Source: Spirosoma linguale DSM 74
Lineage (GTDB): Bacteria > Bacteroidota > Bacteroidia > Cytophagales > Spirosomataceae
Direction of reading: 5' to 3'
Assembly: GCA_000024525.1 (NCBI GenBank)
Contig: CP001770.1
Location: forward strand, 1-64,000
Length of the DNA stretch: 64,000 bases
The number at the start of each line of letters is the position of its first letter. The first letter of the stretch is position 1. Below, piece by piece: positions 6,864 to 49,427 of this stretch. The translations under genes and the position numbers were made by a program. The notes under the pieces are model-generated. The model did not search any database, had not been told where the DNA came from, and saw only the letters and a list, made by a program, of their open reading frames with translations.

Positions 6864-9704
6864 ATGAAACGTTTTTTTCTCATCACCTGTCTTGTTCTGG
6901 TGTTTACGGCCAGCAATGGACAACATCAACAGCACACAATGCCCGATGCCAATCGGTCGGCTGAGCAACCTCACAATCCTGACAAGTCTAACTTCCCAGC
7001 TGTCAAAACAAGTTTACCAGTGTCGCGGCCACAGGCGTTGGCGAACGTAAAGCCGACAGGGAAACGGGTACCGTATGATCTGATCATTGATGAACAGATG
7101 GTTAATATTACGGGCAAACCCAAAAAGGCCATGACCATAAACGGTGGGATTCCCGGACCCACCATGCGGTTTACAGAAGGTGATGTAGCCGTTATCCGGG
7201 TTCATAACAAACTGAAAACAGAAACCTCACTGCACTGGCACGGCATCCTGCTCCCCAACAAACAGGATGGTGTTTCGTATTTGAATACCCCCCCTATTCA
7301 AGCGGGCGACACCTACACGTTTGAGTACCCCCTCGTTCAGTCAGGTACGTACTGGTTTCACTCCCACACGCGCTATCAGGAGCAGATTGGCGTATACGGC
7401 TCGATTGCCATTCAACCTCAGCAGCCCACTCACAAAGTAGATCATGATTTGGTGTTACTATTGTCGGATTGGACGGATGAAAATCCGGCCCATATCCTGA
7501 AAAACCTGAAACGGCGCAACGAATGGTACTCGATCAAAAAAAACAATGTCCAATCGCTCAACCGCATTATTCAGCACAAGGCCGTGGGGGCGTACCTGCG
7601 GCAGTCGATGATGAAAATGGCACCGATGGATATTTCCGACGTTTACTACGACCGGTTCCTGGTAAATGGAAAAGACACGGTTCGATACCCGGAAATCAAA
7701 GCAGGTCAAACCGTTCGGCTTCGGGTTATCAACGCCAGTGCGTCCACCTATTTTCACGTTAATTATGCCGGTGGTCCCATGAAGTTGATTGCTGCCGATG
7801 GTCTGGATGTTCAACCGGTGGACGTTGACCGGCGGCTAATTGCCATTGCTGAGACCTATGACTTTATTGTCACTGTCCCAAACGGTGGCGCTTTTGAAGT
7901 ACGGGCGACGGCACAAGACGGTTCTGGTTACGCAACGGCTTTGCTGGGAAAGGGTAAGGCGAAGTACGCCCCCACTATCCCCCGCCCCGATCTGTATAAA
8001 TTAACCGCCAACATGAGTCGAATGGGGGGGGTGGGCATGGGTACGATGAACATGGGCAAAACCGACACAACTGCTCAGACTAACTCCGACATGAACGGCC
8101 CCATGATGCACGATATGGCCGGGATGAATCATGGGGCTAGCCAACAACCCGTAAATTCGGCAAAACCGGGCACCAAAGAACCAACCATGGGGAACATGGA
8201 CCATAGTCAGATGCAGATGGGACAGACTAAGCCAGCACAGGCCGTACCCGTCAAACCGAAAAAGCAGGATCCGATGGCCGGGATGGACCACAGCCAGATG
8301 GATATGGGTGAAAAGCCGTCTGCCAAGCAGCCGACTCCGGCAAAAAAGGCCTCAAAGCCGTCAAAAGCGGTTGGATCAATGGCTGGGATGGATCACAGTG
8401 GCATGAACAGGGACGGCATGAAAACGGCCAAAGATGGTAAGATGGACATGACGGGGATGGACCATGAACAGATGGACCACTCCTCCATGCCCGCGTCGGC
8501 GGACCGGGGCATGGATCATAGTAACATGGCCATGAAAATGGATTCGATGCCCACTACGAAAACGGACAGCAAAAAGCCGGATGACATGGCTGGCATGGAT
8601 CACAGCAAAATGAACATGGACAGTAAAACTGGCGATATGGCCGGGATGAAAGGAATGAGCAGTGGGGGCGGGGGTATGGAAGGAATGAATATGATGGACG
8701 AGCAGAATACCATCGACTACAGCGTTCTCAAGTCTCCCGAACCGATTGTCTTTCCGGCGAATCGCCCTATCCGCGAAATACCGCTCACCCTGTCGGGCAA
8801 TATGTTCCGCTACATCTGGGGCTTCAACGGACAACCACTGTCCCGTGCGGATATGATTCAGATTCGGCGGGGCGAAATTGTGCGTATCCGTATGACGAAC
8901 AATACCATGATGATGCACCCGATTCACCTGCATGGTCATTACTTCCGCGTACTGAACGGGCAGGGTCAGTATTCACCCCTGAAGCATACGGTGAACGTAT
9001 CGCCCATGGAAAACGTCACGATTGAGTTTATGGCTGATGACGAGAAAGACTGGTTTTTTCACTGTCACCTACTGTATCACATGCTAAGCGGAATGGCCCG
9101 CGTGGTTAGCTATGGCGACAAACCGGACTCATCCATTGCTGCTATTCAAAAACTTCACCTGCGCGACATGCGCGATAATCAGCCGTTTGTCTGGGGCTTC
9201 CTGCAACCCGGTTATCCGATCAACTATTTTAGTCTAAATGTCTCTACTAACAAAAACGCCATCGTTGCCGGGGGAGACCACGACTGGCGCACAAATCGGT
9301 TCGAGTTCGACTTGGACTATGAACGCTATCTCGGCGATTGGTTGCGGGTGTTTGCCGGGATTGACGGCGGGAATGAAGAGTTTTTGCGCCGGGTACGGCC
9401 CGAAGATGGGGTCGTTACCGACCGGCGTATCGTCCGGGCTGTGGCGGGTATTCGGTATATGTTGCCGTTTTTGATTCAGTCCGAAGTAAAACTCGATACA
9501 CGCGGTAACGTCCGTTTCCAGCTAAACGGCCAGCAAATGTTGTTTCCCCGCCTGGATTTCCAGTATCAAACGCAGTGGTTAGTGGGGAGTTATGTGCGGG
9601 CGCATGTTGAGCTACAGTACACCGTCACCAAAAATCTGTTTCTGCACACCGATTACGATACCCGGTACAAAACAGTTGGTGGTGGGCTGGGTTACAATTT
9701 CTGA
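6864..9704 (+). CDS. Multicopper oxidase fused to CopB-like outer-membrane barrel
   Basis: A 946-residue secreted protein. Residues 1-20 are a signal peptide. The cupredoxin domains carry type 2/3 copper motifs HWHG (124-127) and HSH (166-168); the last cupredoxin has HPIHLHGH (about 686-693) and HCHLLYHML (about 732-740). Residues 380-620 are a long insert of repeated MDHSxM/GMDH units that probably bind Cu(I). From about 770 to the end the sequence looks like alternating amphipathic strands ending in an aromatic residue (GLGYNF), resembling CopB outer-membrane proteins. In proteobacteria PcoA/CopA and PcoB/CopB are separate proteins, so this reads as a natural fusion. It would oxidise Cu(I) at or near the outer membrane. 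It ends at a strong bidirectional terminator. Confidence 0.93.
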   Translation: MKRFFLITCLVLVFTASNGQHQQHTMPDANRSAEQPHNPDKSNFPAVKTSLPVSRPQALANVKPTGKRVPYDLIIDEQMVNITGKPKKAMTINGGIPGPTMRFTEGDVAVIRVHNKLKTETSLHWHGILLPNKQDGVSYLNTPPIQAGDTYTFEYPLVQSGTYWFHSHTRYQEQIGVYGSIAIQPQQPTHKVDHDLVLLLSDWTDENPAHILKNLKRRNEWYSIKKNNVQSLNRIIQHKAVGAYLRQSMMKMAPMDISDVYYDRFLVNGKDTVRYPEIKAGQTVRLRVINASASTYFHVNYAGGPMKLIAADGLDVQPVDVDRRLIAIAETYDFIVTVPNGGAFEVRATAQDGSGYATALLGKGKAKYAPTIPRPDLYKLTANMSRMGGVGMGTMNMGKTDTTAQTNSDMNGPMMHDMAGMNHGASQQPVNSAKPGTKEPTMGNMDHSQMQMGQTKPAQAVPVKPKKQDPMAGMDHSQMDMGEKPSAKQPTPAKKASKPSKAVGSMAGMDHSGMNRDGMKTAKDGKMDMTGMDHEQMDHSSMPASADRGMDHSNMAMKMDSMPTTKTDSKKPDDMAGMDHSKMNMDSKTGDMAGMKGMSSGGGGMEGMNMMDEQNTIDYSVLKSPEPIVFPANRPIREIPLTLSGNMFRYIWGFNGQPLSRADMIQIRRGEIVRIRMTNNTMMMHPIHLHGHYFRVLNGQGQYSPLKHTVNVSPMENVTIEFMADDEKDWFFHCHLLYHMLSGMARVVSYGDKPDSSIAAIQKLHLRDMRDNQPFVWGFLQPGYPINYFSLNVSTNKNAIVAGGDHDWRTNRFEFDLDYERYLGDWLRVFAGIDGGNEEFLRRVRPEDGVVTDRRIVRAVAGIRYMLPFLIQSEVKLDTRGNVRFQLNGQQMLFPRLDFQYQTQWLVGSYVRAHVELQYTVTKNLFLHTDYDTRYKTVGGGLGYNF

Positions 9705-34302: not shown

Positions 34303-35085
34303 CTATTTTGGGAACTTCTTTATAAATATAGCTAACTCACGTTCTTTGTTAACAGTAGCAAAATTCTCTTTGTGCCTATCATCAACTGAAGCATGGCAAC
34401 GAATACATAGACATTGTAAATTCTGTGGTCTGTTATCAGTTTTGCGTCCGTTCCGGTGATGTACATGCAAGAAGTGTCGATCCATTACGGCAGACAAATC
34501 AATTGAGCACTTCTCACATTTGTATGCCTTTGCTTCCCTGATTTTTTTGCTGATTAAAGAAAAATCGGGGGTATATCCAAAAATATCAACGACACTGTTA
34601 TCGGGTTCGGCTGCTGAACCATACTGCTCGACCAACATAGCATAAAAATCTTCTGTGTCTACAATCCCTTCATTTTGTGCGCCTATGAGTTGACGACAAT
34701 AGCCGCACAATTTTAAAATAGTATAAACATCTTTTTTAGGGTAAGGAGCTCCTCCCTGCCCTGAATCATACAATTGTACATTTTCTAATGTAGTAAAGAC
34801 ATAATCTCCATGAAGCTTCTGTCGCTTTTCTACTATCTCACAATCCGCTGTATGGAATTTGGGCTCTCCAAAGCGACTAATATTGGGTTTTTGATTAAAA
34901 ATGTACCCTTTGTATTCTTGGCCGTCTATCGTACAATAAATCCCATCGGACCGAATTACGATGTCGCCCTGCTGCATTCCTTTCAGCAGGTCACGTTTCA
35001 ATAGCTGAAATGTTCCGGCACTCGTTTTAGGAAAGCCTTTTTGATCTAAGTATTGCTGCAGACCATTGAAAGAATACAGGGTCAT
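34303..35085 (-). CDS. zorE: HNH endonuclease, ZorE-like
   Basis: 260 residues. The C-terminal third is an HNH domain: CEKC (190-193), HVHHRNG (207-213), DNRPQNLQCLC and CIRCH (to 231), with Cys residues that would bind a structural zinc. The first 140 residues are a separate, strand-rich part with three further Cys (GYC) of unknown role. It begins 4 bases inside the end of the ZorB-like gene. In type II Zorya systems the third gene is an HNH protein, ZorE, that acts on DNA when ZorAB senses phage; position and domain fit. Low sequence knowledge prevents certainty. Confidence 0.8.
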   Translation of the reverse strand: MTLYSFNGLQQYLDQKGFPKTSAGTFQLLKRDLLKGMQQGDIVIRSDGIYCTIDGQEYKGYIFNQKPNISRFGEPKFHTADCEIVEKRQKLHGDYVFTTLENVQLYDSGQGGAPYPKKDVYTILKLCGYCRQLIGAQNEGIVDTEDFYAMLVEQYGSAAEPDNSVVDIFGYTPDFSLISKKIREAKAYKCEKCSIDLSAVMDRHFLHVHHRNGRKTDNRPQNLQCLCIRCHASVDDRHKENFATVNKERELAIFIKKFPK

Positions 35086-35750
35086 AGCTTTATCTGGTTG
35101 AGTTCTTCAATGACTCGATCACTGTTGGTCACTATTCGAAACTCGACGCGACGCGATTGAACATCGTACTGTTTCCGGGTTATCTTTGAATACTTTCCAT
35201 CGGCATCTAAAGCACGGCTCCATCCATATCCACTGGTCGTTAGAATATATTGCAGGTGCCGTTGACTCTCTTGATTTAGTCGGAAGAAAGAAGGATGTTT
35301 TACCAAATAGTATAAAACATTATTCGCCCGTTGTTGGGATAATTCAATAGTTTGCTGGTAGTCCCCACTTGCCGTATGCCCTTCTACTCGAACCTCTTCT
35401 ATACTTTTCACGTACTCAGGTTTAGATATTATAGCCAAATATTTTGGTATAAATTGATTCAAAATGTTGACAAATTTGCCGGTTGGGACTCCCTTTCCAC
35501 CGTCGAACAAACCATCAGCATCTTTAAAGCGAATCGATAAATCATTATTTATTTCTAGATTCCATTGAGTTGCTACCTGACTAAATTCAGCTTTCAGATC
35601 TGTATAAATTTTCGCCTTGACGTCTTCTACCTGCCCCACTTTGTTTTGCAGTAAGCCCATATAGGCTAAGGCGATGAAAAGAAAGATAACCATCAATACG
35701 GTCATTAAATCGGCATAGGGAATCCAGAATGATTCTTTTTTCTGTCTCAT
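35082..35750 (-). CDS. zorB: ZorB-like OmpA/MotB-family protein
   Basis: 222 residues. One N-terminal membrane helix contains the proton-binding Asp14 in IPYADLMTVLMVIFLFIALAY, typical of MotB/ExbD-type stators. The C-terminal domain is OmpA-like peptidoglycan binding: VRVEGHTASG and LSQQRANNVLYYLV. In Zorya, ZorB forms a proton-driven motor with ZorA, anchored to peptidoglycan. Start lies 2 bases after the ZorA-like stop, and it overlaps the HNH gene by 4 bases, giving a tight A-B-E order. Confidence 0.9.
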   Translation of the reverse strand: MRQKKESFWIPYADLMTVLMVIFLFIALAYMGLLQNKVGQVEDVKAKIYTDLKAEFSQVATQWNLEINNDLSIRFKDADGLFDGGKGVPTGKFVNILNQFIPKYLAIISKPEYVKSIEEVRVEGHTASGDYQQTIELSQQRANNVLYYLVKHPSFFRLNQESQRHLQYILTTSGYGWSRALDADGKYSKITRKQYDVQSRRVEFRIVTNSDRVIEELNQIKL

Positions 35751-35752
35751 AT

Positions 35753-37171
35753 CTACCGTCGATTAGTAGGTTGACCACTCATAAATCGTTGGATTAGTCC
35801 ATCAAGATTTTGCAGGGTATCATTCAGCCGTTCATAAAACTCTTGATTTATATTCTCAAGATCATTTTTTAATGCGGTTGATGTGGTTGAAACGATATTT
35901 ACGGCTTTACTCATCTCTGCCCGGTACTTGTCCCAAACAGATCCATTTAAATTCCGAAACTCCTCCAGTTGCGTCACTAAGATTTCTGCTTTCTCATTGA
36001 AATTCATTTGATTACGGACCCATACGTTTAGCTTTTGAGTTGTCAAGTCGAAGGCATCGGTAGTTTTCACCAGTGTGCTTACAGCACCCTCAACTTTGCT
36101 GGTGATCGCAGTAAACGTCCCATCGCTAATCATGACTTTTTCGAGTTCCGAAACCAGTGTCATCAGTTTACCATCACCCGAAACTAATTCCTGATTCACA
36201 TCAGCCACCGTAGTTAGGACATTCGATGCCACTTTCAGATTATTAGTGGCAATGTCGACCTGCTCAATAATTGTCTTGACTTGCTCACTTAGTCTGGCGA
36301 CCTGCTCCTTGTTTTCCTTTTGCCAGGTGTTAAGCATTTGCACACTGCCGTTCAATTCCTTGAAGTTCTCCTTAACCAGCTTGTCGATAAGCTCACTCAT
36401 CTGTGCGTTGAACTGCTCTGTCGATGCCCGCATGACTTCCACTAACGCTTCAGTATTGTTCTTCCGCAAGAGCTCGGAAAACTCATCAAACTTGGCGGTA
36501 AGCAATTTTTGATTCCCAAGCATTGATTTTACAATGGCATCGACTCCTGTTTGCTGCTCTTTAGTATAGGTATCCTGCGCTTTCTTTAGCTCTGTTAAAT
36601 TCCTTATAATTGATTCTGATTGCCTATATGTAATTTGATAATGATCCTCTTCTTGACGGGTTTGAGTCGTTATCAAGTCGTTTAGCTTTCCAATTTGTTG
36701 GTTAAAGGTTGTGCTATTCTCTTTAACCGATACATTCACCATATCCAATTCAGTCCGGAAAGTCCGCTCTAAATTTTCTACCTGTGTGCTAATCAAGTTT
36801 AGGGCTGATAGTTCATCACTTGAGCTTCGCGGCCGGTCTGGCGACTGGTCAATGTGTTGCTGTACGGATGCCAACACTTTTTGGAAAATAATCAAGCCCG
36901 CAATCCCCAAAACAGTTGCAAAAAATGCAGATTTCAAGCCACCTAATAGCTGAGGTAAGCTTCCCTGAATGTCATTGGCATCAAAGTCCGATAAGCCATA
37001 GGCAATGCCTATGGCTGTACACATTATACCAATAGTAGGAAAAACTGAAGGGATTAAATCGAGTACATAGGGATTTACATTGGAAGGCGTACGGTAAGCT
37101 TTTCTCAGGTAATAAATACTATAAATTGTCCATGAGCCGAGAAAACCGGCAGGTAATAAAAATTCAGTCAT
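35753..37171 (-). CDS. zorA: ZorA-like MotA/ExbB-family protein
   Basis: 472 residues. Three membrane helices are visible (about 2-22, 40-60, 73-101) with a MotA/ExbB-like segment (IGIMCTAIGIAYGL; LGGLKSAFFATVLGIAGLIIF). Residues 130-460 are a long series of coiled coils, which would form the intracellular tail reported for ZorA. It starts 29 bases after the Res-like gene stop, and is followed at once by the ZorB-like gene. Together with the HNH gene it has the make-up of type II Zorya; there is no ZorC or ZorD helicase as in type I. Name given by architecture and order. Confidence 0.88.
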   Translation of the reverse strand: MTEFLLPAGFLGSWTIYSIYYLRKAYRTPSNVNPYVLDLIPSVFPTIGIMCTAIGIAYGLSDFDANDIQGSLPQLLGGLKSAFFATVLGIAGLIIFQKVLASVQQHIDQSPDRPRSSSDELSALNLISTQVENLERTFRTELDMVNVSVKENSTTFNQQIGKLNDLITTQTRQEEDHYQITYRQSESIIRNLTELKKAQDTYTKEQQTGVDAIVKSMLGNQKLLTAKFDEFSELLRKNNTEALVEVMRASTEQFNAQMSELIDKLVKENFKELNGSVQMLNTWQKENKEQVARLSEQVKTIIEQVDIATNNLKVASNVLTTVADVNQELVSGDGKLMTLVSELEKVMISDGTFTAITSKVEGAVSTLVKTTDAFDLTTQKLNVWVRNQMNFNEKAEILVTQLEEFRNLNGSVWDKYRAEMSKAVNIVSTTSTALKNDLENINQEFYERLNDTLQNLDGLIQRFMSGQPTNRR

Positions 37172-37200
37172 AAAGGAAGGTGGGAAATATAATTGGGAGA

Positions 37201-39846
37201 TTATAAAATGAGCTGTTTATCGGGTTGACGTCCTTGAGGTAGCCACCCATTTTTCGCTAATGTCGCCGGAATCATCTCGTACTTCATGCCCGATGCAGTA
37301 GCCATTTCATTAGCCCACTTCTTTTTAGCTTGTACTACCTGGTCGTCAATTTGGTAGTCAGCTTTCACTTCAAACATGACATAACTCTTGTCCATAAGTT
37401 GGACCAAAAAGTCCGGGTAATAGGTTCGCAGCGCGTGACTCTCTGGGTCAATATAGGGAATACAGAAATCGCTCTGTCCATGCGTCAGCATGCCCGTAAA
37501 CCAAACTTTATCTATTCTGCCATCGCGTAACAGCTCCTTAAAAAAGTCAAACTCGGGTACTGAGTCAAAGCAGTAATTGCTCAGATGGAATGATTTTGAC
37601 TCATAGGGCTTGTAGTCCGCTGCCTGGTAGTTAGCCACTTTATCAGGCTTTGCTTTAACCCGATAGAAACCATCTTTCGGTATTTTGACCAGCTCGATCT
37701 CTTGCTCCTCTTTGCTCTCGAAAGACTTCAATTCATACAACTCATTAAAAAGGTGCGGAATCACCCAGTCATAAAGCAGCTCATTGAATTCATTCACTGC
37801 TTCCAGTATGGCCGTCGTGCCTTCTTCCGAATCCCGTAGTAATTTGGCAATGCGTATTGGCGATAGATTCAGATATCGGGATATTTCAGCTACCAAACTC
37901 AGCTCCGAGAAGGTTCGCTTCTCTTTGATGCTGGTCAAGTCGCGCTCGGGACCAATCTTCTTAGTCAGATCGGCTAATGATCGTTCGGTCACCGTTATAC
38001 GGTACTGATCTGTTTGCGTTTCGCTCAGCTTTAATAATGGTCGTTCCGTTTTCTTCTCAACCATTTTGTACAGTTTCTGGACCCGCTGTATTTTTATCTT
38101 AACGGGTGGCGGCACTACCCGTACTTCGATCTGATCACTGTCATTATCCCCGGCCGTAGTCAGGTCTTCTAAAGTCAGTTTAAAGTTCTGATCGAGTTCG
38201 GCCCGAAGGATTGTTTCGCACTCTTTGGACAAGTACACCCGCGCGGTTTCCTGCACGTCGCCAATAGCACGCAAACAGCGCATTGTAGCCTGAAGAACAA
38301 ACACTTTTGACTTGGGCTCCCGGTGCATCGCTACTGAGAATAGACTCCGGCAGTTCCAGCCTTCTTTACCTTTGTTAACCAGTAAGACAAATTGTTTTTC
38401 AGAGGCCGGTGTATCCAGTAAGTTGAACTCCCGGATTTCGTCATTGGTGCTCTTTTCGGTGTTCTCCAGCACCTTACTAGTTTGTACGTTCATACTGGCC
38501 AGAATCTCTTCAACCAGGGGCCGTATTTCTGTTTTTAGCTCATCGACCGTGGTACAGAAAATAGCCATCTTAGGGAGCATACCCTCATAACGCTTGTTAC
38601 CAAATTGTTCGTAGAATCCAGCTATAGCCGATTGCAAAAACGCCTTGGTTTGGTCCCTGACGTTTTCATAAGCATCGAGTTTTACCTGCTTCAGATATTT
38701 GTTATCGATGGCTTCCTTCAGCCCGTAGCTATAGACTACTTCCGGAAGGAGTCGGCTGCCAACGTACGGTGTACCGGTGAAGTTGTAACAGGCTACTACC
38801 TGTTCGCCCTTATCGGCCAGCAGTTTAGCCAGGGCGTTGATCGTAGCTCGTAGGCTGGTCTGTTTGGTCGGATCGAAATCCTGTTCGAGCTTGGTCCCAA
38901 ATACGTGGTGGGCTTCGTCTACGTAGATTCCGAGGTTTCGGAGTCGTCTAAGCTTCTCGAAGCGTTGGTTGGTCAATAGTTCAGCCTCCGAATCCAGATT
39001 CTCGAAGTCGTACAGATCCTCAAAGTCCTTGTTCAGCTCTTTTATGTTGTACGTCTTCTTGGCATCAGCAAAGAGCAGATCAGCCGCTTTTTTAGCCTTC
39101 GCTTGCCGCTTTAGAATGATCTTCTGTGTATTGGAAATGATTATGTTGTAGGCGGTGCCATCCAGTACGTTCAGCGCATCGCCCGACTCATCAAGGAAGT
39201 GAAATTTTAGGTGCGTATCCAGCCAGTTCATGTACTCGGCCGGTACTACCCTCGACTTGTCGAAACTTTCGATTTCGCGCAGGGAAGTTAGTACGGTTTT
39301 GTCCGGCGCAAATACGAGCGCGTTGTGGCAGTACTTCTTGTCGAGAGGAAACTTGTTGGCTAACAAGAACTCGTAGAAGATACAGGTAGCCATCAGTACC
39401 GTTTTACCTAACCCCATGGTCAGGGCAAAGATGTAGTTCGGGTACGACTGCTTATAGGCGGCCATCTGCTGAAAAATAGCCTTGGCCGTGGCTTTGTCGG
39501 TTTCCTGGTCCTGCTCCAGTATATCAAATATCTGGACCTGACCGGTACGATCAGCCCCGCCAACTGTGCGGCCCTCGAATTTGCCTGTTCTGTCGAACCA
39601 GTCCTGGAAGATGTCTGACAGTTGGGCGTTATCGAAAAACTCTTTCAGGAAGACATAGATTTCCAGGGCTTCGAACTGGGGCTTACGCAGGTAGGAACCG
39701 GCGTTCGTAGGGTCGTTGAAGCGCAGAAATTTTTTGGTGATAGCCGGGTAACTGGCGTAAATATCTTTACGCTTCTCCTGGTGGAAGCGCAACAGAAATC
39801 GGTAGAAATGGAATTCAACCGGTTTGGTTTGGGTACGTTTAGCCAT
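37201..39846 (-). CDS. Type III-like restriction subunit (Res): helicase plus nuclease
   Basis: 881 residues. SF2 helicase motifs: TMGLGKT (143-149), DEAH (310-313), NFTGTPY and QATMRCLRAIGDVQETAR (motif VI). Near the C-terminus, YYPDFLVQLMDKSYVMFEVKAD gives a PD-(D/E)XK nuclease core (about 808-826). It pairs with the Mod-like methyltransferase 9 bases upstream. The unit would cut unmodified DNA after ATP-driven movement, as type III enzymes do. The annotation as type III rests on the Mod-Res pairing and domain order, since some related pairs are placed in other classes. Confidence 0.87.
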   Translation of the reverse strand: MAKRTQTKPVEFHFYRFLLRFHQEKRKDIYASYPAITKKFLRFNDPTNAGSYLRKPQFEALEIYVFLKEFFDNAQLSDIFQDWFDRTGKFEGRTVGGADRTGQVQIFDILEQDQETDKATAKAIFQQMAAYKQSYPNYIFALTMGLGKTVLMATCIFYEFLLANKFPLDKKYCHNALVFAPDKTVLTSLREIESFDKSRVVPAEYMNWLDTHLKFHFLDESGDALNVLDGTAYNIIISNTQKIILKRQAKAKKAADLLFADAKKTYNIKELNKDFEDLYDFENLDSEAELLTNQRFEKLRRLRNLGIYVDEAHHVFGTKLEQDFDPTKQTSLRATINALAKLLADKGEQVVACYNFTGTPYVGSRLLPEVVYSYGLKEAIDNKYLKQVKLDAYENVRDQTKAFLQSAIAGFYEQFGNKRYEGMLPKMAIFCTTVDELKTEIRPLVEEILASMNVQTSKVLENTEKSTNDEIREFNLLDTPASEKQFVLLVNKGKEGWNCRSLFSVAMHREPKSKVFVLQATMRCLRAIGDVQETARVYLSKECETILRAELDQNFKLTLEDLTTAGDNDSDQIEVRVVPPPVKIKIQRVQKLYKMVEKKTERPLLKLSETQTDQYRITVTERSLADLTKKIGPERDLTSIKEKRTFSELSLVAEISRYLNLSPIRIAKLLRDSEEGTTAILEAVNEFNELLYDWVIPHLFNELYELKSFESKEEQEIELVKIPKDGFYRVKAKPDKVANYQAADYKPYESKSFHLSNYCFDSVPEFDFFKELLRDGRIDKVWFTGMLTHGQSDFCIPYIDPESHALRTYYPDFLVQLMDKSYVMFEVKADYQIDDQVVQAKKKWANEMATASGMKYEMIPATLAKNGWLPQGRQPDKQLIL

Positions 39847-39854
39847 CGGTCGAA

Positions 39855-41789
39855 TTAGTAAATCGTTACGGTTTGTTCGAGCGATTCAGATAGCAGATCC
39901 GTTATCTTCACCCGGATTGTACCATGGTTAGCAGGAACCGGGTAGACACCCCGAACAAGGTTGCTCCCCTCGGGAATATCGACCGTTGCTGGTTCGAGTA
40001 CAGCTCCGTCGTAGTTCCAGTCAATCAGGACCGATTCGACCAGCTCTTTCCAGTTGCCTACGTCTTCTTTCATGAGCGAAAGCTTTTGCAGGAGGTTCAT
40101 GGGGAAGAACTCTCGGATGAGGAGTTGGTTGTTTTCGATGCTGATCTCCGCTTCGGCGTCCCGTTTGAACTCCAGCTTGGAACGGTCGCGTAACACATCG
40201 ACCACTTCTACGTCGACTGCATAACCCATCGTTTTTATCTCATTTTTGAGCTGGGCTGCCAAGTCAGGTTCATGCCCCATGCAGATGAGCGTAATTTGTT
40301 CAACGGGCCGGTTTGGGGCTTCGGACTTCTTTTTCTCGTAAGCTCTAAGGTCTATGTTGCTGAGCAGTTCATTCAGATCAGCGCGGGTTGCAATCCGGTT
40401 GACGGGCATTACTTTAATCAGCCGCCCATCTTTCTCACCGTCGAACAGCCCACCACCCGGAGCGGGTTCAACTTCAAGTGCCTTCATTAGCAGTTCTTTT
40501 GCTTCGAGCGGATTTCGAAAAACGTCGTAATGATTGACATTATATACTTGAAACCCCGTATAAACAGTACCGTCGTTCACTTTGCCATTTAACTCGTTTG
40601 CAATTTTAATGAGTCGTTTCGTTGTGGTCTGAATAGCACCTAGGTTAATATCTGCTCCAATGAACCGTCGACCTAGTTTCATAGCTACGGACTGCGTAGT
40701 ACCGCTACCCATAAAGCAATCGAAGACAAGGTCGCCTGGGTTAGAGGAAACTTGAATTATTCTTTCGAGTAGGGTTTCAGGTTTTTGAGTTGGATAATCA
40801 ACTCGTTCTCCTGAATGTGAACTTAACAGTTTTACATCCGTCCACATATCTTGAAGTGAAACTCCGGGCATTTCGTCGAGATAATATTTCAGTCTGGGTA
40901 AACCGCTACTTGTGTAATAAATTTTCCCTTCCTGCTCAAACTTTTCCATATTTGCTTTAGAATATGCCCAATATCTACCGCTACTTAACGTATATCCTTT
41001 CCATTCATAGGAAGTATCTCCTCCCGGTTTTCTTGCAGTTAAATCAACCGTTTGAAAAGCTCTTCCGTCTTCATCTTTCATGCGATAATTTTGCTTTATA
41101 TAATCATCGCTGTATGGTATATATTGCTGATTCCAAATGTAATTTAAGCTTTTACAGTAATAAAAAATTATGTCGTGTTGTCGTCCAAAGAATTTTGCAC
41201 CTTGTTTAGCATCGCTATGCGCGGCTGTTCTTTTCCAAACAATCTCATTTAAGAAGTTATTCTGTCCAAAAATTTCGTCCAATAGACTGCGGATGTAATG
41301 GCTTTTATGATAGTCGCAATGAACATAAATACTGCCTTTTTCGGACAATAATTCCTTGAGTATTATAAGTCGCTCGTACATAAATTGCAAGTACTCGTCA
41401 TTCGTCCAAATATCCGTATATTGCTTTTCTTCAAAACTTGTGGCATCGTTCATGATATCCTTACCACGTAGCTGAATCTTCTTTTTATAATCTGCTTTAG
41501 AATCAAATGGAGGGTCGATATATATCAAATCAACTTGGCCCCGGAATTTCTTCAACAGATGACTCATAACTTGGAGATTATCACCCCAGAAGATTTGGTT
41601 CATCCAGCCATCCGTTTCTTCACCATAAGTTTCTTTGAGTTGGGCCGGGTAAAACTGTGTAGTTGTAAATGGCCGTTTCCCTTGCCACCTAAGCTCAGGA
41701 TAACCTTTTATAGGTTGCTCGAATTGATACTTTTCTACTGTAACGTCTTCTTGTTTGGTGCGGACGTTGAGGTTAAGATCTGTTTGCAT
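39855..41789 (-). CDS. Type III-like adenine DNA methyltransferase (Mod)
   Basis: 644 residues. Catalytic motif IV is DPPF (92-95) and the AdoMet-binding motif FMGSGTT follows at 359-365, the order of beta-class N6-adenine or N4-cytosine methyltransferases; DPPF fits adenine. The central 130-340 region is the target-recognition segment. The C-terminal third has no motif I can name. It would modify the plasmid and host DNA against the Res protein. It is expressed between the small winged-helix-like gene (49 bases upstream) and Res (9 bases downstream). The recognition sequence cannot be read from the protein. Confidence 0.92.
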   Translation of the reverse strand: MQTDLNLNVRTKQEDVTVEKYQFEQPIKGYPELRWQGKRPFTTTQFYPAQLKETYGEETDGWMNQIFWGDNLQVMSHLLKKFRGQVDLIYIDPPFDSKADYKKKIQLRGKDIMNDATSFEEKQYTDIWTNDEYLQFMYERLIILKELLSEKGSIYVHCDYHKSHYIRSLLDEIFGQNNFLNEIVWKRTAAHSDAKQGAKFFGRQHDIIFYYCKSLNYIWNQQYIPYSDDYIKQNYRMKDEDGRAFQTVDLTARKPGGDTSYEWKGYTLSSGRYWAYSKANMEKFEQEGKIYYTSSGLPRLKYYLDEMPGVSLQDMWTDVKLLSSHSGERVDYPTQKPETLLERIIQVSSNPGDLVFDCFMGSGTTQSVAMKLGRRFIGADINLGAIQTTTKRLIKIANELNGKVNDGTVYTGFQVYNVNHYDVFRNPLEAKELLMKALEVEPAPGGGLFDGEKDGRLIKVMPVNRIATRADLNELLSNIDLRAYEKKKSEAPNRPVEQITLICMGHEPDLAAQLKNEIKTMGYAVDVEVVDVLRDRSKLEFKRDAEAEISIENNQLLIREFFPMNLLQKLSLMKEDVGNWKELVESVLIDWNYDGAVLEPATVDIPEGSNLVRGVYPVPANHGTIRVKITDLLSESLEQTVTIY

Positions 41790-41838
41790 TAGGATTTGGT
41801 GTAAGTGCGTTATTCAGCCAAAAATTGGCTAAGTTAAG

Positions 41839-42429
41839 TTATTCTGAAAATCGGACAGATCGTCGGTCAAGGTTAATCTGCTCTCTAACCACGTACCCAA
41901 GCCCTTCCTTTTCAATTATTGATAGGCTTTCTAGCTCAGCAAGAATGCATTGCATTATCTCCATCTTGATCTGAGCCTCAAAAAGAGAATTATACGTTTG
42001 GTACAACTGATCAAGCGTGAAATATGGCTCATCGTAGTGTCCAGTCCGGTAGATTCCATAGAGTACATTCGACTCAAGCGAAGAAAAGCTATGGGTTCTG
42101 ATGCCATTGAAGTCTTTGAGCAGAACCAGCACAGCCGCCAATGATACCCAAGTTTTATAGTCGATTCCCAGAGCGGCCAACGATGTCCATCCAAGGGTTT
42201 TCCATAACTGATATTGGTTTATGTACAAGACATTACGCCAACTGATCGATTGGGCAGTTAGCTCACCAGCTGATGATTCTGATATATCAACGGATCTTTG
42301 CTCTGTGTCTCGATGGTCGTTGTATGCCAGTTCGACATTGTTGAGCAGGGCAAGGATATCAATTTTGCTGGTATCAAGTTCAGGATACTCAGTTGTAAAA
42401 TACTGTCGGAAATTCACCGGGCGAGCCAT
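41839..42429 (-). CDS. Unknown protein with winged-helix-like end
   Basis: 196 residues, no signal or membrane segment (the hydrophobic stretch SLAAVLVLLKDF is short). The last 60 residues (IKMEIMQCILAELESLSIIEKEGLGYVV) have the helix-helix-wing rhythm of a winged helix. I do not recognise a family. It lies between the nuclease-like gene (13 bases) and Mod (49 bases) in the eight-gene run, so it is probably part of the defence locus, perhaps as DNA-binding adaptor or regulator. Confidence 0.7.
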   Translation of the reverse strand: MARPVNFRQYFTTEYPELDTSKIDILALLNNVELAYNDHRDTEQRSVDISESSAGELTAQSISWRNVLYINQYQLWKTLGWTSLAALGIDYKTWVSLAAVLVLLKDFNGIRTHSFSSLESNVLYGIYRTGHYDEPYFTLDQLYQTYNSLFEAQIKMEIMQCILAELESLSIIEKEGLGYVVREQINLDRRSVRFSE

Positions 42430-42442
42430 AAGACGTAATGAT

Positions 42443-43420
42443 TTACATGAACAGCCATTTCGCTATGGATGCATCTAATTCTGAGTCATTAAAAACGATT
42501 CTGTACTTTGGGTTGAAGCCCCCAGCCGTGTCATCATTCCTTGTGCTACCTCGATCAGTATCTACCCTATCTTGACTATTTGGCAATTCACCTGATATGG
42601 GAATCCAACCCTTGCTATAACGTTCATCTACTTCTGGGCGATTATCAGTATTGAATTGAATAAACAAAGATCCACCAGCCGCCTGGTCTTTAGTAGCGGA
42701 AGAATCTATAACTTCTTGATAAACGTCGATCATTGATCTGCCGACTAGATTGAAAATTTTATAAAATGGCTTTGCTATATGAAGACTGGAAAAGGATGGC
42801 TTTTTAATCCATTTTCCGCTATTATAATAAGTTTTACCTTTAAGTTTTCTAGCGTCCACATATGTGCAACCGTAAACTTCAATCTCATCGGTAGTTGAAG
42901 CAGTTATAGAAGATATAGTTCTTGCATTAGCGCTGAAGTTATAAAATAGATAAATTGGAATTGTCATCTCAATTCTTTTTCCGTCTATATTAAGCGGTGC
43001 ATGATTCGCGTATTCCAATAAACTATCAATTTGATGTTTAATTACCTTACTCTTCTTATCCCCTACGACATGATCAATAGAATTATATAGTCCTGTTTTA
43101 CCAGTTTTGCTGGCAATTTTCGCCTGGCAAGGCAAAAAGGCATAACCGTGACCTATCTTAATAAAAAGCTCAATATCATTCCCATTTGCTTTTTCATCTA
43201 TGGCCTCAGACATTTCAACGGCATTTGGGAAAGCTAAGGATAGTAGTCTAAATTGAAAAAGTAAATTTTGGGTAACAGTCACTTCGTGAAACTTTAAGCC
43301 TCTACTATTCCGAACAAATCTTATCTTTTCCCAAGTAACTACTGAAAAAAACTTAATAAAGGAGGCTATATTTTTTTTTGCAATAAATTCTGTATACGTT
43401 TTTTCTATAATACTGCTCAT
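42443..43420 (-). CDS. Predicted PD-(D/E)XK-like protein of the defence locus
   Basis: 325 residues. Around residues 75-100, ANGNDIELFIKIG followed by YAFLPCQAKI gives the spaced D/E...QxK pattern of some PD-(D/E)XK nucleases, as in DUF6615-like proteins as I remember them. The middle part is strand-rich (MTIPIYLFYNFSA). It is the second gene of the eight-gene run, between the UvrD-like protein (34 bases upstream) and the winged-helix-like gene. A nuclease role is inference; catalytic residues would need comparison with the family. Confidence 0.65.
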   Translation of the reverse strand: MSSIIEKTYTEFIAKKNIASFIKFFSVVTWEKIRFVRNSRGLKFHEVTVTQNLLFQFRLLSLAFPNAVEMSEAIDEKANGNDIELFIKIGHGYAFLPCQAKIASKTGKTGLYNSIDHVVGDKKSKVIKHQIDSLLEYANHAPLNIDGKRIEMTIPIYLFYNFSANARTISSITASTTDEIEVYGCTYVDARKLKGKTYYNSGKWIKKPSFSSLHIAKPFYKIFNLVGRSMIDVYQEVIDSSATKDQAAGGSLFIQFNTDNRPEVDERYSKGWIPISGELPNSQDRVDTDRGSTRNDDTAGGFNPKYRIVFNDSELDASIAKWLFM

Positions 43421-43454
43421 TACATACAGCTAGTTTACGAATTTACTAATATTA

Positions 43455-46355
43455 TTATAGGGAAAATTTACTTGGGTTACAATGATACCGCATATCGCAG
43501 TCGCCACACAACTTATCGGTCTTCTGTGTATGTGTCATATCGTAATCAAAATTTCCTATCTTCTTCACAACCTCGTCAAACGAGTTGACCGTAACGGCCA
43601 CATTATCCCGGTTGTACGGGAATGACACATAGGGACTACTACTCTCTTCTTTCGGATAGTATAAATTCATCCGGGACACGGTCTGGCCCGTTCGCTCTTC
43701 AACCAAATGAGCATAAATCTCCAGCTGCCTTCGGTACTGGTTTACCTGCCTCCTTAGCCGTGGGTCAGTTGTGTTCACATCCGGCTTATCGCCCGACTTA
43801 AAATCCACCAACTCAACCGTTCCGTTTTCTCCTTCGATCAGATCAATGGTACCTTTCAGGATATAGTCTTCCTTCACCAGCGATACGTCGACCTCGGCTT
43901 CCCGGATCAGGTGCCATTTGTCAGCTTGTCGATCTCGATACCGCAAAATCTGCCGGAGCAATGCGTCAAGTTGTGCTTGCCGGAGCTGACTTCGCTGCTG
44001 TTTGGCAAGTAAGTTGTAATTCAGATCGTACCAAGATTTTATTTTTTCATCCGTCAATTCATTGTGCGGCTCCCCGCGCAGTACGTGCCGGTGAATGTCT
44101 TCAATCGTCTGGTGCAGCAGCGAGCCCCCTAAAACGCCCCCCGTCCGTACTTCAACAAATTTTAGCTCCTTGTAAAATTTATACTGGAGTGGACAGTTCT
44201 CATACAGCAAAATGTGCGAAGTAAACGAGTACTCATGCTTAATATTCACCGGCTTAAGTGAATCAAACGTAAAGTCGTCCAATCGGAACGACGGACTGCG
44301 CCAAGAGGGTAACGAATAATGTACCTGATCGAAGTACTTGGATGGGCTACGCCCCTGCCCTTGTTTCTCCCGGGTTGTCAGGACCAGCAAATTCTGAGGT
44401 CTGGAAAAAGCGGTGTAATACAGTCGCCAAAAGTCAAAGCGATGGGTTTCTTCGGCAGGTTCAAACGGGGCTTTGTGTAAGTAAGGAGTTAAGTCAACGG
44501 CCTCCCGCTGAGTACGGGGGACAGCATTCAACGACCCAACCATAACAACGGGAAACTCCAACCCTTTTGCCTGGTGAATTGTCATAAACGATATGCATCC
44601 GGAAGGGGCCATTTCATCAAAGTCCTCATATTCCTGAATGCCACCTTCGTACACAAACCGCAGGTACTGGTTGAAGAAATTCTGAAGCACCGACTGCTGA
44701 TTTTTTGGCGTCAGGATTGTTACGTTGTAGAGATACTCAAAGCGATACAGTATTTTGGAAAGAAGGGCAATGTTGTAAGCAGCCCGAAGGTCTCGCTTCG
44801 GGTCTGTCATATTCACGTTCAGAAACTCAGAGAAAAGTGGAAATTCAAGTAGCTGATAAAGCAGGGCCGCAAAGGCATAGGTTGTTGAATCTGCCATGGC
44901 CGCATGAATTTTAGCTGTTTGCCGTGCCCACTGAATCAGATCACGGTGTTTAGCCGGATCGGCTCGCAGTGCATTGGCAAAAAACAACTTCCATTCCTGA
45001 TAGCGATCCCAAATACTTAATTGTGCGTCGTCTTGCCATTTCAAAGCCTCAAAGAGGTTAGGAAACAGGAAGATAAGGGCCCCCAGAATTAGCTTTACCT
45101 CGTCGCGCTCAAAGAACAGGGCCGATCGGGGTGAAAAAACCGGAACGCCATTTTCTTCCAAAAACTCCGTTAGTGCTAGCACCTGATCGTTTTTTACCGA
45201 CCGGAACAGCATGGCGATCTGATTCAGATCGGTAATCTTTCCCGATGCCAGCAACGACCGAATGAACTCCAGCACTTCTTCATGGTATTGTTCGGGCGAG
45301 CCTGATGCCCCTACCCGAATGACGGCCGGAGAGGTATGAAATTTTTCCGTACGAGGTACAATGGTCTTGTCGTACCGAAACGTAGTTGATGTGCCCCCGG
45401 TCCAGTCCATACGAGTCATCCAGTTATTGTAAAACGTGATGATGTCTGGATGGGAGCGGTAGTTTGTTTCAAGCCGGATAACGGTACACTTCTCAGCCGG
45501 GAAGTGATCGGGGAACTCAAGGATGTTCCGAATCGATGCGCCCCGGAATCGGTAAAGGCCCTGGTCGTCGTCGCCCACCACGCATAAATTGTGTCGAGGT
45601 CCTGTCAGCAAAAGGATTATACGCTCCTGAATGGTATTGGTGTCTTGATACTCGTCAATCATCAGGTAGCGAAATTTCTCCTGAAGCTTGTCAAGAATTT
45701 GCGGCTGATTTTCGAGCAGGTATAAGAACTCGGTTTGTATCACTGAAAAGTCCAGTACGTTTTCTTCCAGTAAGATCTCACGATAAATCGAATAGGCTTC
45801 TCCAAGAACCCGAACGGGAATATCCGTTGAGCTGGCCAGAACGATAGGGTCCAGGTACTCTTCTGATACTCTGTTTAAAAGTCGTACCAGATCAGACGCC
45901 CGCTCCCAGCGCGGCCGTGTCGGTTCACCAACCAGCACCTCAATGTCATCAATCTCCATAAATCGATTGATGTTTCGGTAGAGCACAAACTGCTGGTCGA
46001 AGTCATCCAGAATCCGGTAACTCCGTTTTAAGCGGGTGTATTCGCGGTACTCCTCAAGCAGACGTAGAAACAAGGAGTGCAATGTACCCAGATACATCTC
46101 ATTGAGATTTACCCGAAGACCAGACCTAAGAAGTTGATTAGATACACGGGTAACCAGCTCTTTGGCGGCCTTCTCCGTAAACGTGGCCACAAACAGATTT
46201 TCGGCCGGAGTACCCAGCTGTATCAATCGTACAATTCGATCAACCAGCGTTTTTGTTTTCCCCGAACCTGGACCAGCAATAATGAGTAATGGTCCTTCAG
46301 TTGCTTCAATAGCCTGAAGTTGTGCAGGGTTTGCTACACTAGATGAAACTAACAT
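43455..46355 (-). CDS. UvrD/AddA-like SF1 helicase with C-terminal nuclease and Fe-S cluster
   Basis: 966 residues. SF1 helicase motifs: AGPGSGKT (27-34), YLMIDEYQDTN (about 230), GDDDQGLYRFRGA, TIHQAKGLEFPVV and LYYTAFSRPQNLLVL. From about 730 the sequence has YENCPLQYKFYKEL, VELVDFKSGDKPD (about 852; PD-(D/E)XK core) and a C-terminal CGDCDMRYHC, four Cys that could hold a 4Fe-4S cluster as in AddB/Cas4-like nucleases. It would unwind and degrade DNA ends. It is the first gene of the eight-gene run that ends with the Zorya-like trio. Standard repair helicases are chromosomal; this one sits in a defence context. Confidence 0.9.
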   Translation of the reverse strand: MLVSSSVANPAQLQAIEATEGPLLIIAGPGSGKTKTLVDRIVRLIQLGTPAENLFVATFTEKAAKELVTRVSNQLLRSGLRVNLNEMYLGTLHSLFLRLLEEYREYTRLKRSYRILDDFDQQFVLYRNINRFMEIDDIEVLVGEPTRPRWERASDLVRLLNRVSEEYLDPIVLASSTDIPVRVLGEAYSIYREILLEENVLDFSVIQTEFLYLLENQPQILDKLQEKFRYLMIDEYQDTNTIQERIILLLTGPRHNLCVVGDDDQGLYRFRGASIRNILEFPDHFPAEKCTVIRLETNYRSHPDIITFYNNWMTRMDWTGGTSTTFRYDKTIVPRTEKFHTSPAVIRVGASGSPEQYHEEVLEFIRSLLASGKITDLNQIAMLFRSVKNDQVLALTEFLEENGVPVFSPRSALFFERDEVKLILGALIFLFPNLFEALKWQDDAQLSIWDRYQEWKLFFANALRADPAKHRDLIQWARQTAKIHAAMADSTTYAFAALLYQLLEFPLFSEFLNVNMTDPKRDLRAAYNIALLSKILYRFEYLYNVTILTPKNQQSVLQNFFNQYLRFVYEGGIQEYEDFDEMAPSGCISFMTIHQAKGLEFPVVMVGSLNAVPRTQREAVDLTPYLHKAPFEPAEETHRFDFWRLYYTAFSRPQNLLVLTTREKQGQGRSPSKYFDQVHYSLPSWRSPSFRLDDFTFDSLKPVNIKHEYSFTSHILLYENCPLQYKFYKELKFVEVRTGGVLGGSLLHQTIEDIHRHVLRGEPHNELTDEKIKSWYDLNYNLLAKQQRSQLRQAQLDALLRQILRYRDRQADKWHLIREAEVDVSLVKEDYILKGTIDLIEGENGTVELVDFKSGDKPDVNTTDPRLRRQVNQYRRQLEIYAHLVEERTGQTVSRMNLYYPKEESSSPYVSFPYNRDNVAVTVNSFDEVVKKIGNFDYDMTHTQKTDKLCGDCDMRYHCNPSKFSL

Positions 46356-47615: not shown

Positions 47616-49427
47616 TTAAACAAAACCATAAATCAGAAATGTTTCACTTTTTTCTGATGTCCATTTTATTAATGATTTCAAAAATATGTATTTGCTTAAT
47701 ATTCTTTCCATCTCTCCGACTCGCTTATCGGTAGAATCGTAAGTTGAAACTAATGTTTCATACTTTTCGATTTGCTTATCTACATAGAATAATATTTGCT
47801 GTTTTATTATATCTATACTTTCTTTATTTACTTGAGATTTTGCAAAATCAAATATAGGTTGAGTGAAAGATTTTGTCATATCTAAAAGTGACTTTGTTAA
47901 TGTACCTAAATAATCTGTGCCATCTTCTGTTTCAACTAACTCATCTAAACTTGTTTGTAAATAATCGAAATACTTTATGGAGTTATCTAATAAATCAAAA
48001 GGATTCAGAAAAACTTTTTCAGGTTCTTCTCTCGGATATAAAAGTAGTTCGTCATAAAACAAGCCTCTAGTATTTTCTTTGTAATTTATAGATAGCCGCT
48101 CTAAAATAATCTTATCGACCGCGATAACAGGGTGACCAGTAGATTGCTCTAATTTATAGGCACTAACAAGACCTCCCGAAAATATCATATTTTTGTCTGC
48201 ATAAAAACTTCCAATAGATATTCCCCCTCTTACGAAGAATCCTTTTTGCATCATTGACAGTTGGTATGATTTAACCACAGTAGCTATTGAATGAAACTGA
48301 ATATGAAAGTCATTGCCAAACTCTATATATGGTAATGATATACATATACAGTCAGAAAACATTCTATATTCCAAATATTCTTGGAGATCTGTTTTGGCCT
48401 TTGAGTCAATTATATTCTCAATCGAAACTTGGACTGCTAATTCCAGTGTTTCGTGTAATTCATTAAGTAGATTAGATGTTTTGTCGGAATCATATTCCTT
48501 GATTATCGCTGAAAACCCAAGTATATCAATAAATGCAACAATTCTCGGTTCTGTATCTACAAGGCTACCTTTAAAGAGTTTTTTGGGAGATTCCAGTACT
48601 ATTACTTCCATAGGATCTTCACTCGGTACATCTATATAACACAACTTAAGAACTTCTAAAATATACTTTTTTATATTATATACATCTACATTTTTTTGAT
48701 CCAAAATATTTTCCGTTTGAACTTCTAATTCGATTAGAAGTTGAGACACAATGCTAAACTCTTGTAAGCTCTCGAAACTTCCACTGTCGAATTTTACTTC
48801 TAAGGATCGTCTTACTAAATCATCAACTTCTGTAAGAATGGCAATCCAGAAAATTTGTAAATCTAAATCATCTTGATAACGATAATGAAGTTTACGTACA
48901 TTTCGCTTGAATGCATTTACATATATTTTAACATCTGAATGAATAGTGTCTTTTTCATAAGGTAATTTATTCCGTATTATATTGGATATAATTTTTGTAC
49001 TCCATTGAAATAAAAAGATTTTCAAAATTTCTGAAAGAGCCGTCTCGGGGTAATAGATGCGCGGAACTTGAAAAACTGAATTTATAATATCTTCAGAATA
49101 AATTTCTATTAGCTGTTCAAAAAATACTTGAGGTGTCCACTTAACAAGGCCGTTAACGTAATTAGCATCAAAAAATATCTTTTTTATTCCATCAAAATCA
49201 ACAGTCTTTGCAACTGCTTTGAACTCTCTTGATCTCGTAATGTTTGGCGTTCTAAAGCGATTTTCACAATAACGTGTGATTTCCCCGCTCAAATCATCAG
49301 TAATTATTATTTCATCAATGTTTGAACTTAAAATATTTTGACTAATTATAACATTGAGCAAGGAATCAAAATACTCCTTATGGCTCTCTTCAAAGTTTGA
49401 GAATTGATAAATTTTGTACGTAATCAT
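47616..49427 (-). CDS. Class III nucleotide cyclase-like protein
   Basis: 603 residues. Residues 295-440 resemble the catalytic domain of class III nucleotidyl cyclases: IVAFIDILGFSAII with metal-binding Asp301, FSDCICIS with Asp359, and GFFVRGGISIGS (397-408). Cyclases of this broad kind include the pyrimidine cyclases of Pycsar anti-phage defence. The first 290 residues form a separate, mainly helical domain I do not recognise. No membrane, TIR or other effector gene lies next to it. A defence role is suggested by the position beside VapBC and the Zorya-like run. The gene is AT-rich relative to the copper island, which suggests transfer. Confidence 0.75.
   Translation of the reverse strand: MITYKIYQFSNFEESHKEYFDSLLNVIISQNILSSNIDEIIITDDLSGEITRYCENRFRTPNITRSREFKAVAKTVDFDGIKKIFFDANYVNGLVKWTPQVFFEQLIEIYSEDIINSVFQVPRIYYPETALSEILKIFLFQWSTKIISNIIRNKLPYEKDTIHSDVKIYVNAFKRNVRKLHYRYQDDLDLQIFWIAILTEVDDLVRRSLEVKFDSGSFESLQEFSIVSQLLIELEVQTENILDQKNVDVYNIKKYILEVLKLCYIDVPSEDPMEVIVLESPKKLFKGSLVDTEPRIVAFIDILGFSAIIKEYDSDKTSNLLNELHETLELAVQVSIENIIDSKAKTDLQEYLEYRMFSDCICISLPYIEFGNDFHIQFHSIATVVKSYQLSMMQKGFFVRGGISIGSFYADKNMIFSGGLVSAYKLEQSTGHPVIAVDKIILERLSINYKENTRGLFYDELLLYPREEPEKVFLNPFDLLDNSIKYFDYLQTSLDELVETEDGTDYLGTLTKSLLDMTKSFTQPIFDFAKSQVNKESIDIIKQQILFYVDKQIEKYETLVSTYDSTDKRVGEMERILSKYIFLKSLIKWTSEKSETFLIYGFV

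Follow-up and report, generated by a model that had tools for sequence, protein, structure and literature searches.

The eight genes at positions 34303–46355 of the window (the whole stretch of DNA analysed here, 64,000 nucleotides of the Spirosoma linguale contig CP001770.1) very probably encode two independent antiphage systems that lie end to end on a mobile element, with all genes pointing the same way. This reading is based on the independent occurrence of both units in other loci, differences in GC content between the genes, the published context of the UvrD–Mod–Res trio, intact motifs, relatives of the 325-residue protein (D325) found elsewhere, and the mobile-element genes of the contig. 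The coordinates of the eight minus-strand open reading frames were verified and are listed here from upstream to downstream, together with the basis of each assignment.

43455..46355, minus strand: UvrD-like SF1 helicase fused to a Cas4/RecB-like PD-(D/E)XK nuclease, 966 aa, unit 1 (Pfam, motifs)
42443..43420, minus strand: D325, DUF6615-like accessory protein, 325 aa, putative PD-(D/E)XK nuclease, insert in unit 1 (Pfam below cut-off, alignment, model)
41839..42429, minus strand: 196-aa accessory protein with a predicted C-terminal winged helix, insert in unit 1 (predicted fold)
39855..41789, minus strand: Mod, beta-class DNA methyltransferase (DPPF, FMGSGTT), unit 1 (Pfam, PADLOC)
37201..39846, minus strand: Res, SF2 helicase with a TnsA-like C-terminal nuclease, unit 1 (Pfam, motifs)
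35753..37171, minus strand: ZorA, MotA-like motor protein, unit 2 (PADLOC)
35082..35750, minus strand: ZorB, MotB-like, with an OmpA domain, unit 2 (PADLOC, Pfam, Asp of the TM helix)
34303..35085, minus strand: ZorE, HNH nuclease, 260 aa, unit 2 (PADLOC, HNH residues)

The gaps between these genes, in the same order, are 34, 13, 49, 8, 29, 2, and −4 bases long, and the nearest gene upstream of the block, encoding a PIN-domain protein, is 275 bases off. The preliminary description, which had given eight minus-strand genes with gaps of 50 bases or less, is thus borne out (the maximum is 49), and its gene identities (UvrD helicase-nuclease, Mod, Res, ZorA, ZorB, and HNH) hold by PADLOC and Pfam. 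Third-position GC varies along the block, from 0.57 in Res and 0.53 in UvrD through 0.46 in the 196-aa gene, 0.43 in Mod, and 0.36–0.44 in the Zorya genes to 0.29 in D325, differences that agree with separate origins. No terminator-like site was found at the junction of Res and ZorA, and the RNA fold there is unremarkable (z −1.4). Terminator-like sites number 7 against 12.1 expected, sigma-70-like sites show no excess (24 observed, 24.2 expected), and a Bacteroidetes-type promoter pattern gives 0 matches against 2.7 expected. Since all genes point in a single direction, with 29 bases and no terminator-like site between Res and ZorA, co-transcription is possible, and the eight genes may form one transcript, a point that weighs against the two-system reading.

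Unit 1 has the layout of a type III restriction-modification operon, in which Res, bearing helicase and PD-(D/E)XK motifs, comes after a beta-class Mod. The 966-aa protein matches the Pfam families UvrD-helicase (220 bits) and PDDEXK_1 (78 bits), as well as Cas_Cas4 with 18.9 bits, a score below the cut-off in the window but above it in loci L043 and L050. Mod matches N6_N4_Mtase of Pfam (166 bits) and both MTase_III (208 bits) and MTase_II (296 bits) of PADLOC, and aligns with the structure of EcoP15I Mod (4zcf) at 66 bits. Res scores just 27 bits with REase_III of PADLOC; in Pfam it matches ResIII (24.7 bits) and TnsA-like N (32 bits), each above the cut-off, and no related solved structure was found at E 0.01. 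Because the relation of Res to known type III models is loose, we use "type III-like" as the careful name. In the window and in 10 loci the motifs for ATP hydrolysis, for methyl transfer, and of both nuclease sites are intact, with Walker A, DEYQDT, DFK, and four cysteines conserved in UvrD, and GxGKT, DEAH, and PD...ExK in Res. Comparison of Mod with its counterpart in Larkinella arboricola reveals that residues 161–320 are 32–50% identical per 40-residue block, whereas all other full blocks are 72–95% identical, the pattern that an exchange of the target recognition domain would produce.

As a trio, UvrD–Mod–Res is an already published context and nothing new. According to a 2017 study (PMC5704561), UvrD-Cas4-like fusions most commonly neighbour type III Mod and Res; in the window, likewise, a UvrD helicase fused to a PDDEXK_1 (pfam12705) nuclease adjoins Mod and Res. 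A figure legend in the same source names an accessory PD-DExK gene. Compared with the system as that text describes it, the window has two additional proteins at the UvrD–Mod junction, D325 and the 196-aa one, and a type II Zorya downstream. The arrangement also resembles type III restriction-modification systems with a helicase-like ATPase gene 5' of mod (PMC8259958), in that a third ATPase gene precedes mod and res; however, the ATPase described there is SF2-like and has no nuclease motif, whereas the window protein is UvrD-like and carries a PD-(D/E)XK domain. Among the literature matches listed, there was no named UvrD–Mod–Res system and no pairing of one with Zorya.

The less known part of the block is the UvrD–Mod junction, which in the window holds the DUF6615-like D325 and the 196-aa winged-helix protein, in Larkinella arboricola a DUF6615 relative only, and which in 18 of 21 loci is too short for a gene. 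Since the Larkinella junction has the D325 relative without the 196-aa gene, the two genes need not occur together. The Larkinella D325 gene, too, was compared in third-position GC and is the lowest of four (0.44 vs 0.51–0.56). In locus L043 (IMGVR_UViG_3300006213_000042, positions 7232–8095), the junction encodes a 287-aa protein unrelated to D325, with no Pfam family and a hydrophobic N-terminus, which overlaps both neighbours (the last part of UvrD and the first part of Mod). The 196-aa protein, called winged-helix-like in the preliminary description, earns that name for its C-terminal part (about residues 107–185), which is a winged helix by predicted fold. A weak Pfam hint of the Cdc6_C winged helix (E 0.06) was also obtained, and no family was assigned at E 0.01 (PADLOC) or 0.1 (NCBIfam). 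Searches with this protein returned no solved structure by sequence and no match in plasmids, and a search of the viral collection with its family returned none.

The same description had counted two proteins without recognised families; this is true of the 196-aa protein but not wholly of D325, which matches DUF6615 (PF20320) with 20.6 bits, under the curated cut-off of 23.8. Given this score and the presence of PF20320 in 9 of 12 relatives, we call D325 DUF6615-like. An alignment of 28 rows, corresponding to 27 distinct genes (one gene appears twice, as P0004 and L008; L015, L024, L025, and P0001 from the window itself are not included), contains the invariant residues E46, E76, G80, D82, Q99, and K101, giving the family signature E, GxD, QxK. 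Such invariance of E, D, and QxK argues for catalysis. The structure model of D325 (pLDDT 74, pTM 0.78) has middling fold matches to Hjc/RecU, while the top rows of VIA-align are human Rep15 and not nucleases, and the best Foldseek hit has E 0.18; the PD-(D/E)XK nuclease fold is therefore assigned tentatively, as a feature of the model. By sequence, no solved structure matched D325. A relationship to Mrr, which has a similar-looking motif, was considered: profile comparison gave no match, but the ad hoc set of Mrr-bearing open reading frames contained unrelated ones, so that the result weighs little in either direction.

A single-sequence search found D325 in 1 of 296 genomes of the phylum, namely its own, none appeared in the species genomes before the alignment-based search, and the DUF6615 profile matched in 2 of 395 genomes; plasmid searches with D325 and with its relative from L016 gave no match, and no paper in the literature collection searched names DUF6615. 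Neighbourhoods are visible at 14 of 18 loci (L008 and L015 included). DUF6615 relatives also occur in a type I restriction-modification operon and next to DISARM-like genes, and several relatives lie in very different operons where the tests made recognised no restriction partner. In two Bacteroidota loci, a 1354-aa protein (L009:5928-9992 and L010:5901-9965, 63% identical to each other) overlaps the DUF6615-type gene by one base; the L009 protein was examined and has no Pfam or PADLOC family. In Spirosoma telluris (L015:9998-10950), the D325 relative is split across two frames, with no UvrD, Mod, or Res nearby. Judged from sequence, D325 is probably an exchangeable accessory nuclease.

Unit 2 fits a type II Zorya system by its PADLOC matches and motifs. 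PADLOC models match over nearly the full length (ZorA2 577 bits, ZorB2 216, ZorE2 339), and the corresponding NCBIfam models are best or near best but score far below their equivalog cut-offs (ZorA2 65 of 700, ZorB2 90 of 400, ZorE 57 of 600). ZorB matches OmpA of Pfam with 31.6 bits, and the aspartate of its TM helix is conserved in 13 of 13 rows, as is the HH...N...H pattern of ZorE in 10 of 10, the window included in both cases. Solved structures of MotA/MotB-like relatives, for instance 8vvi, exist for both ZorA and ZorB. The unit resembles the type II Zorya of PMC11890865 in having ZorA, ZorB, and an HNH-type ZorE in order with conserved catalytic residues, but differs from known type II Zorya in its distance from the NCBIfam equivalog models. 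For the Zorya II studied there, recruitment of the ZorE nickase by ZorAB upon infection has been shown.

Each unit occurs in other loci, and neither was found there with the other. In all 21 other loci in which the position of UvrD is visible, UvrD, Mod, and Res have the same order and strand, and tblastn with ZorA, ZorB, and ZorE gives no match in any of the 21 (E 1e-3 or 1e-2, by set). Downstream of Res, the side on which the window has its Zorya genes, at least 2.2 kb are visible in 18 loci and 0.8–1.6 kb in the other three. These loci comprise 7 plasmid records, 2 from the viral collection, 11 usable of 15 from a profile scan, and Larkinella arboricola, and are partly non-independent (L046 and L047 share 92% identity over 11 kb, and L094 resembles L047 at about 92% across 6.8 kb that fall into two pieces). 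L096 and L100 were dropped as duplicates of L043's contig and of L099; outside the 21 are also L092, where the contig edge lies inside Mod, L106, with Mod, a 154-aa Res-like reading frame, and no UvrD match, three phage records with matches, and the distant Res-like loci L003–L005, L063, L064, and L066 (24–31% identity), of which L063 has Mod and Res matches without UvrD. A search of plasmids with Res hit 24 records, in 13 of which 80% or more of the query matched at a single place, and 7 of the 24 enter the counts; the plasmids come from Tunicatimonas, Nitrosomonas, Phaeobacter, Yoonia, Blastomonas, Vibrio, and Enterococcus. Res is present in 3 of 222 genomes of the window's family at E 1e-30 (the third being distant, 28%) and in 3 of 395 genomes, and its profile matched 1 of 65 genomes, namely its own.

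ZorA occurs in 2 of 200 genomes of the family at E 1e-10, and the ZorA2 profile, run against 395 Bacteroidota genomes, matches 12, including the genome of the window. The 12 other ZorAB loci (11 from this profile and one from the family search, 5 of them shortened by contig ends) all have ZorA and ZorB matches, 9 have a ZorE match, and none matches any of the five unit 1 proteins (UvrD, D325, the 196-aa protein, Mod, and Res). In genome G009, ZorA lies on one contig and a distant Res-like gene on another. Plasmids yielded one ZorA record, covering 54% of the query, and the viral collection none. The suggestion of one composite eight-gene system is thus not supported, since the trio without Zorya (21/21) and ZorAB without UvrD, Mod, and Res (12/12) occur independently, which the preliminary description had named as evidence against a composite, and none of these loci combines the two halves; the alternative offered with it, a stacked cassette, is the one supported. 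As to whether the 196- and 325-residue proteins go with Mod–Res or also with ZorAB, neither accompanies ZorAB in the 12 other loci, but relatives of D325 extend beyond Mod–Res to the type I and DISARM-like loci.

The contig, 189,452 bases long with no overlap between its ends, carries genes for a Rep3 initiator, a tyrosine integrase, a MobA relaxase, a coupling protein, TraG, TraM, and DUF4138, which places the block on a plasmid-like or conjugative element. Upstream of the block (window 47616-49427, minus strand) lies the gene for a 603-aa protein with no convincing family and a GC content of 0.30 (0.24 at third positions). Beyond the window, the same contig encodes a 1159-aa SNF2/ResIII-type helicase (L069:16368-19847), perhaps another defence gene. 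A multicopper oxidase (window 6864-9704) and AcrB-type efflux genes (L071:11162-13186) suggest metal-tolerance cargo on the element. On a Tunicatimonas pelagia plasmid (L044:1888-15656), the trio lies between a phosphoribosyltransferase–DprA pair and a multiubiquitin/ThiF/DUF6527 run, sets that we take to be reminiscent of reported defence gene sets.

In the two-system reading, Mod of unit 1 would mark self DNA, while the Mod–Res complex would recognise unmethylated sites, with Res as the cutter. The UvrD-Cas4-like protein probably unwinds and degrades DNA from the ends, preventing repair or recombination of what has been cut. D325 would probably serve as an exchangeable nuclease, mounting a second attack on DNA or becoming active once restriction has been blocked. 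A probable DNA binder or regulator is the 196-aa winged-helix protein. In unit 2, by analogy with the system described in PMC11890865, infection would lead ZorAB to recruit the ZorE nickase. This role of D325 has a less likely but serious competitor, in which it is no nuclease of unit 1: it would be either an unrelated passenger or a subunit that binds DNA or acts as a sensor without catalysis, its nuclease fold having decayed, and it would be regulated by the 196-aa protein. The weak fold matches and the very different operons of its relatives, several without a recognised restriction partner, speak for it, as do the WYL/HTH regulators that PMC5704561 reports in some UvrD-Cas4/Mod/Res loci; however, the invariant E, D, and QxK in 27 distinct genes argue for catalysis, and the Larkinella junction, lacking the 196-aa gene, speaks against an obligate pairing of the two.

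A synergistic composite, in which the ZorE nickase uses DNA ends made by Res and UvrD-Cas4 and the halves are co-selected in this lineage, appears quite improbable. Its precedent is the synergy of Druantia III with Zorya II, with ZorE using DNA ends, described in a preprint (PMC13192584). The window is similar in that a Zorya II lies close to a system with a helicase-nuclease and that the eight genes are tightly packed on one strand, but here the neighbour is UvrD-Cas4/Mod/Res, the pairing was not found to recur in the 21 and 12 loci, and most Druantia-associated ZorE proteins of the preprint have an extra C-terminal region. By analogy, it is possible that the window's Zorya II uses ends from UvrD and Res. 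A bolder extension of the two-system reading is likewise improbable: DUF6615-type proteins would be interchangeable secondary effector nucleases across unrelated restriction operons (UvrD-Cas4/Mod/Res, type I, and DISARM-like), the UvrD–Mod junction would be a slot for such additions, and Zorya II in this strain would also use the operon's DNA ends, on the model of the Druantia III–Zorya II synergy.

With two independent systems as the preferred reading, the suggested novelty of eight genes gives way to two known systems that separate clearly, and the most interesting part becomes the two little-known extra proteins within one of two described kinds of defence. The analysis points to a little-studied, conserved, and probably catalytic family, the DUF6615-like proteins, that recurs in different restriction operons. 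If D325 is an add-on nuclease, restriction operons would have an accessory slot, and such a slot could help explain why similar restriction operons differ in phage range.
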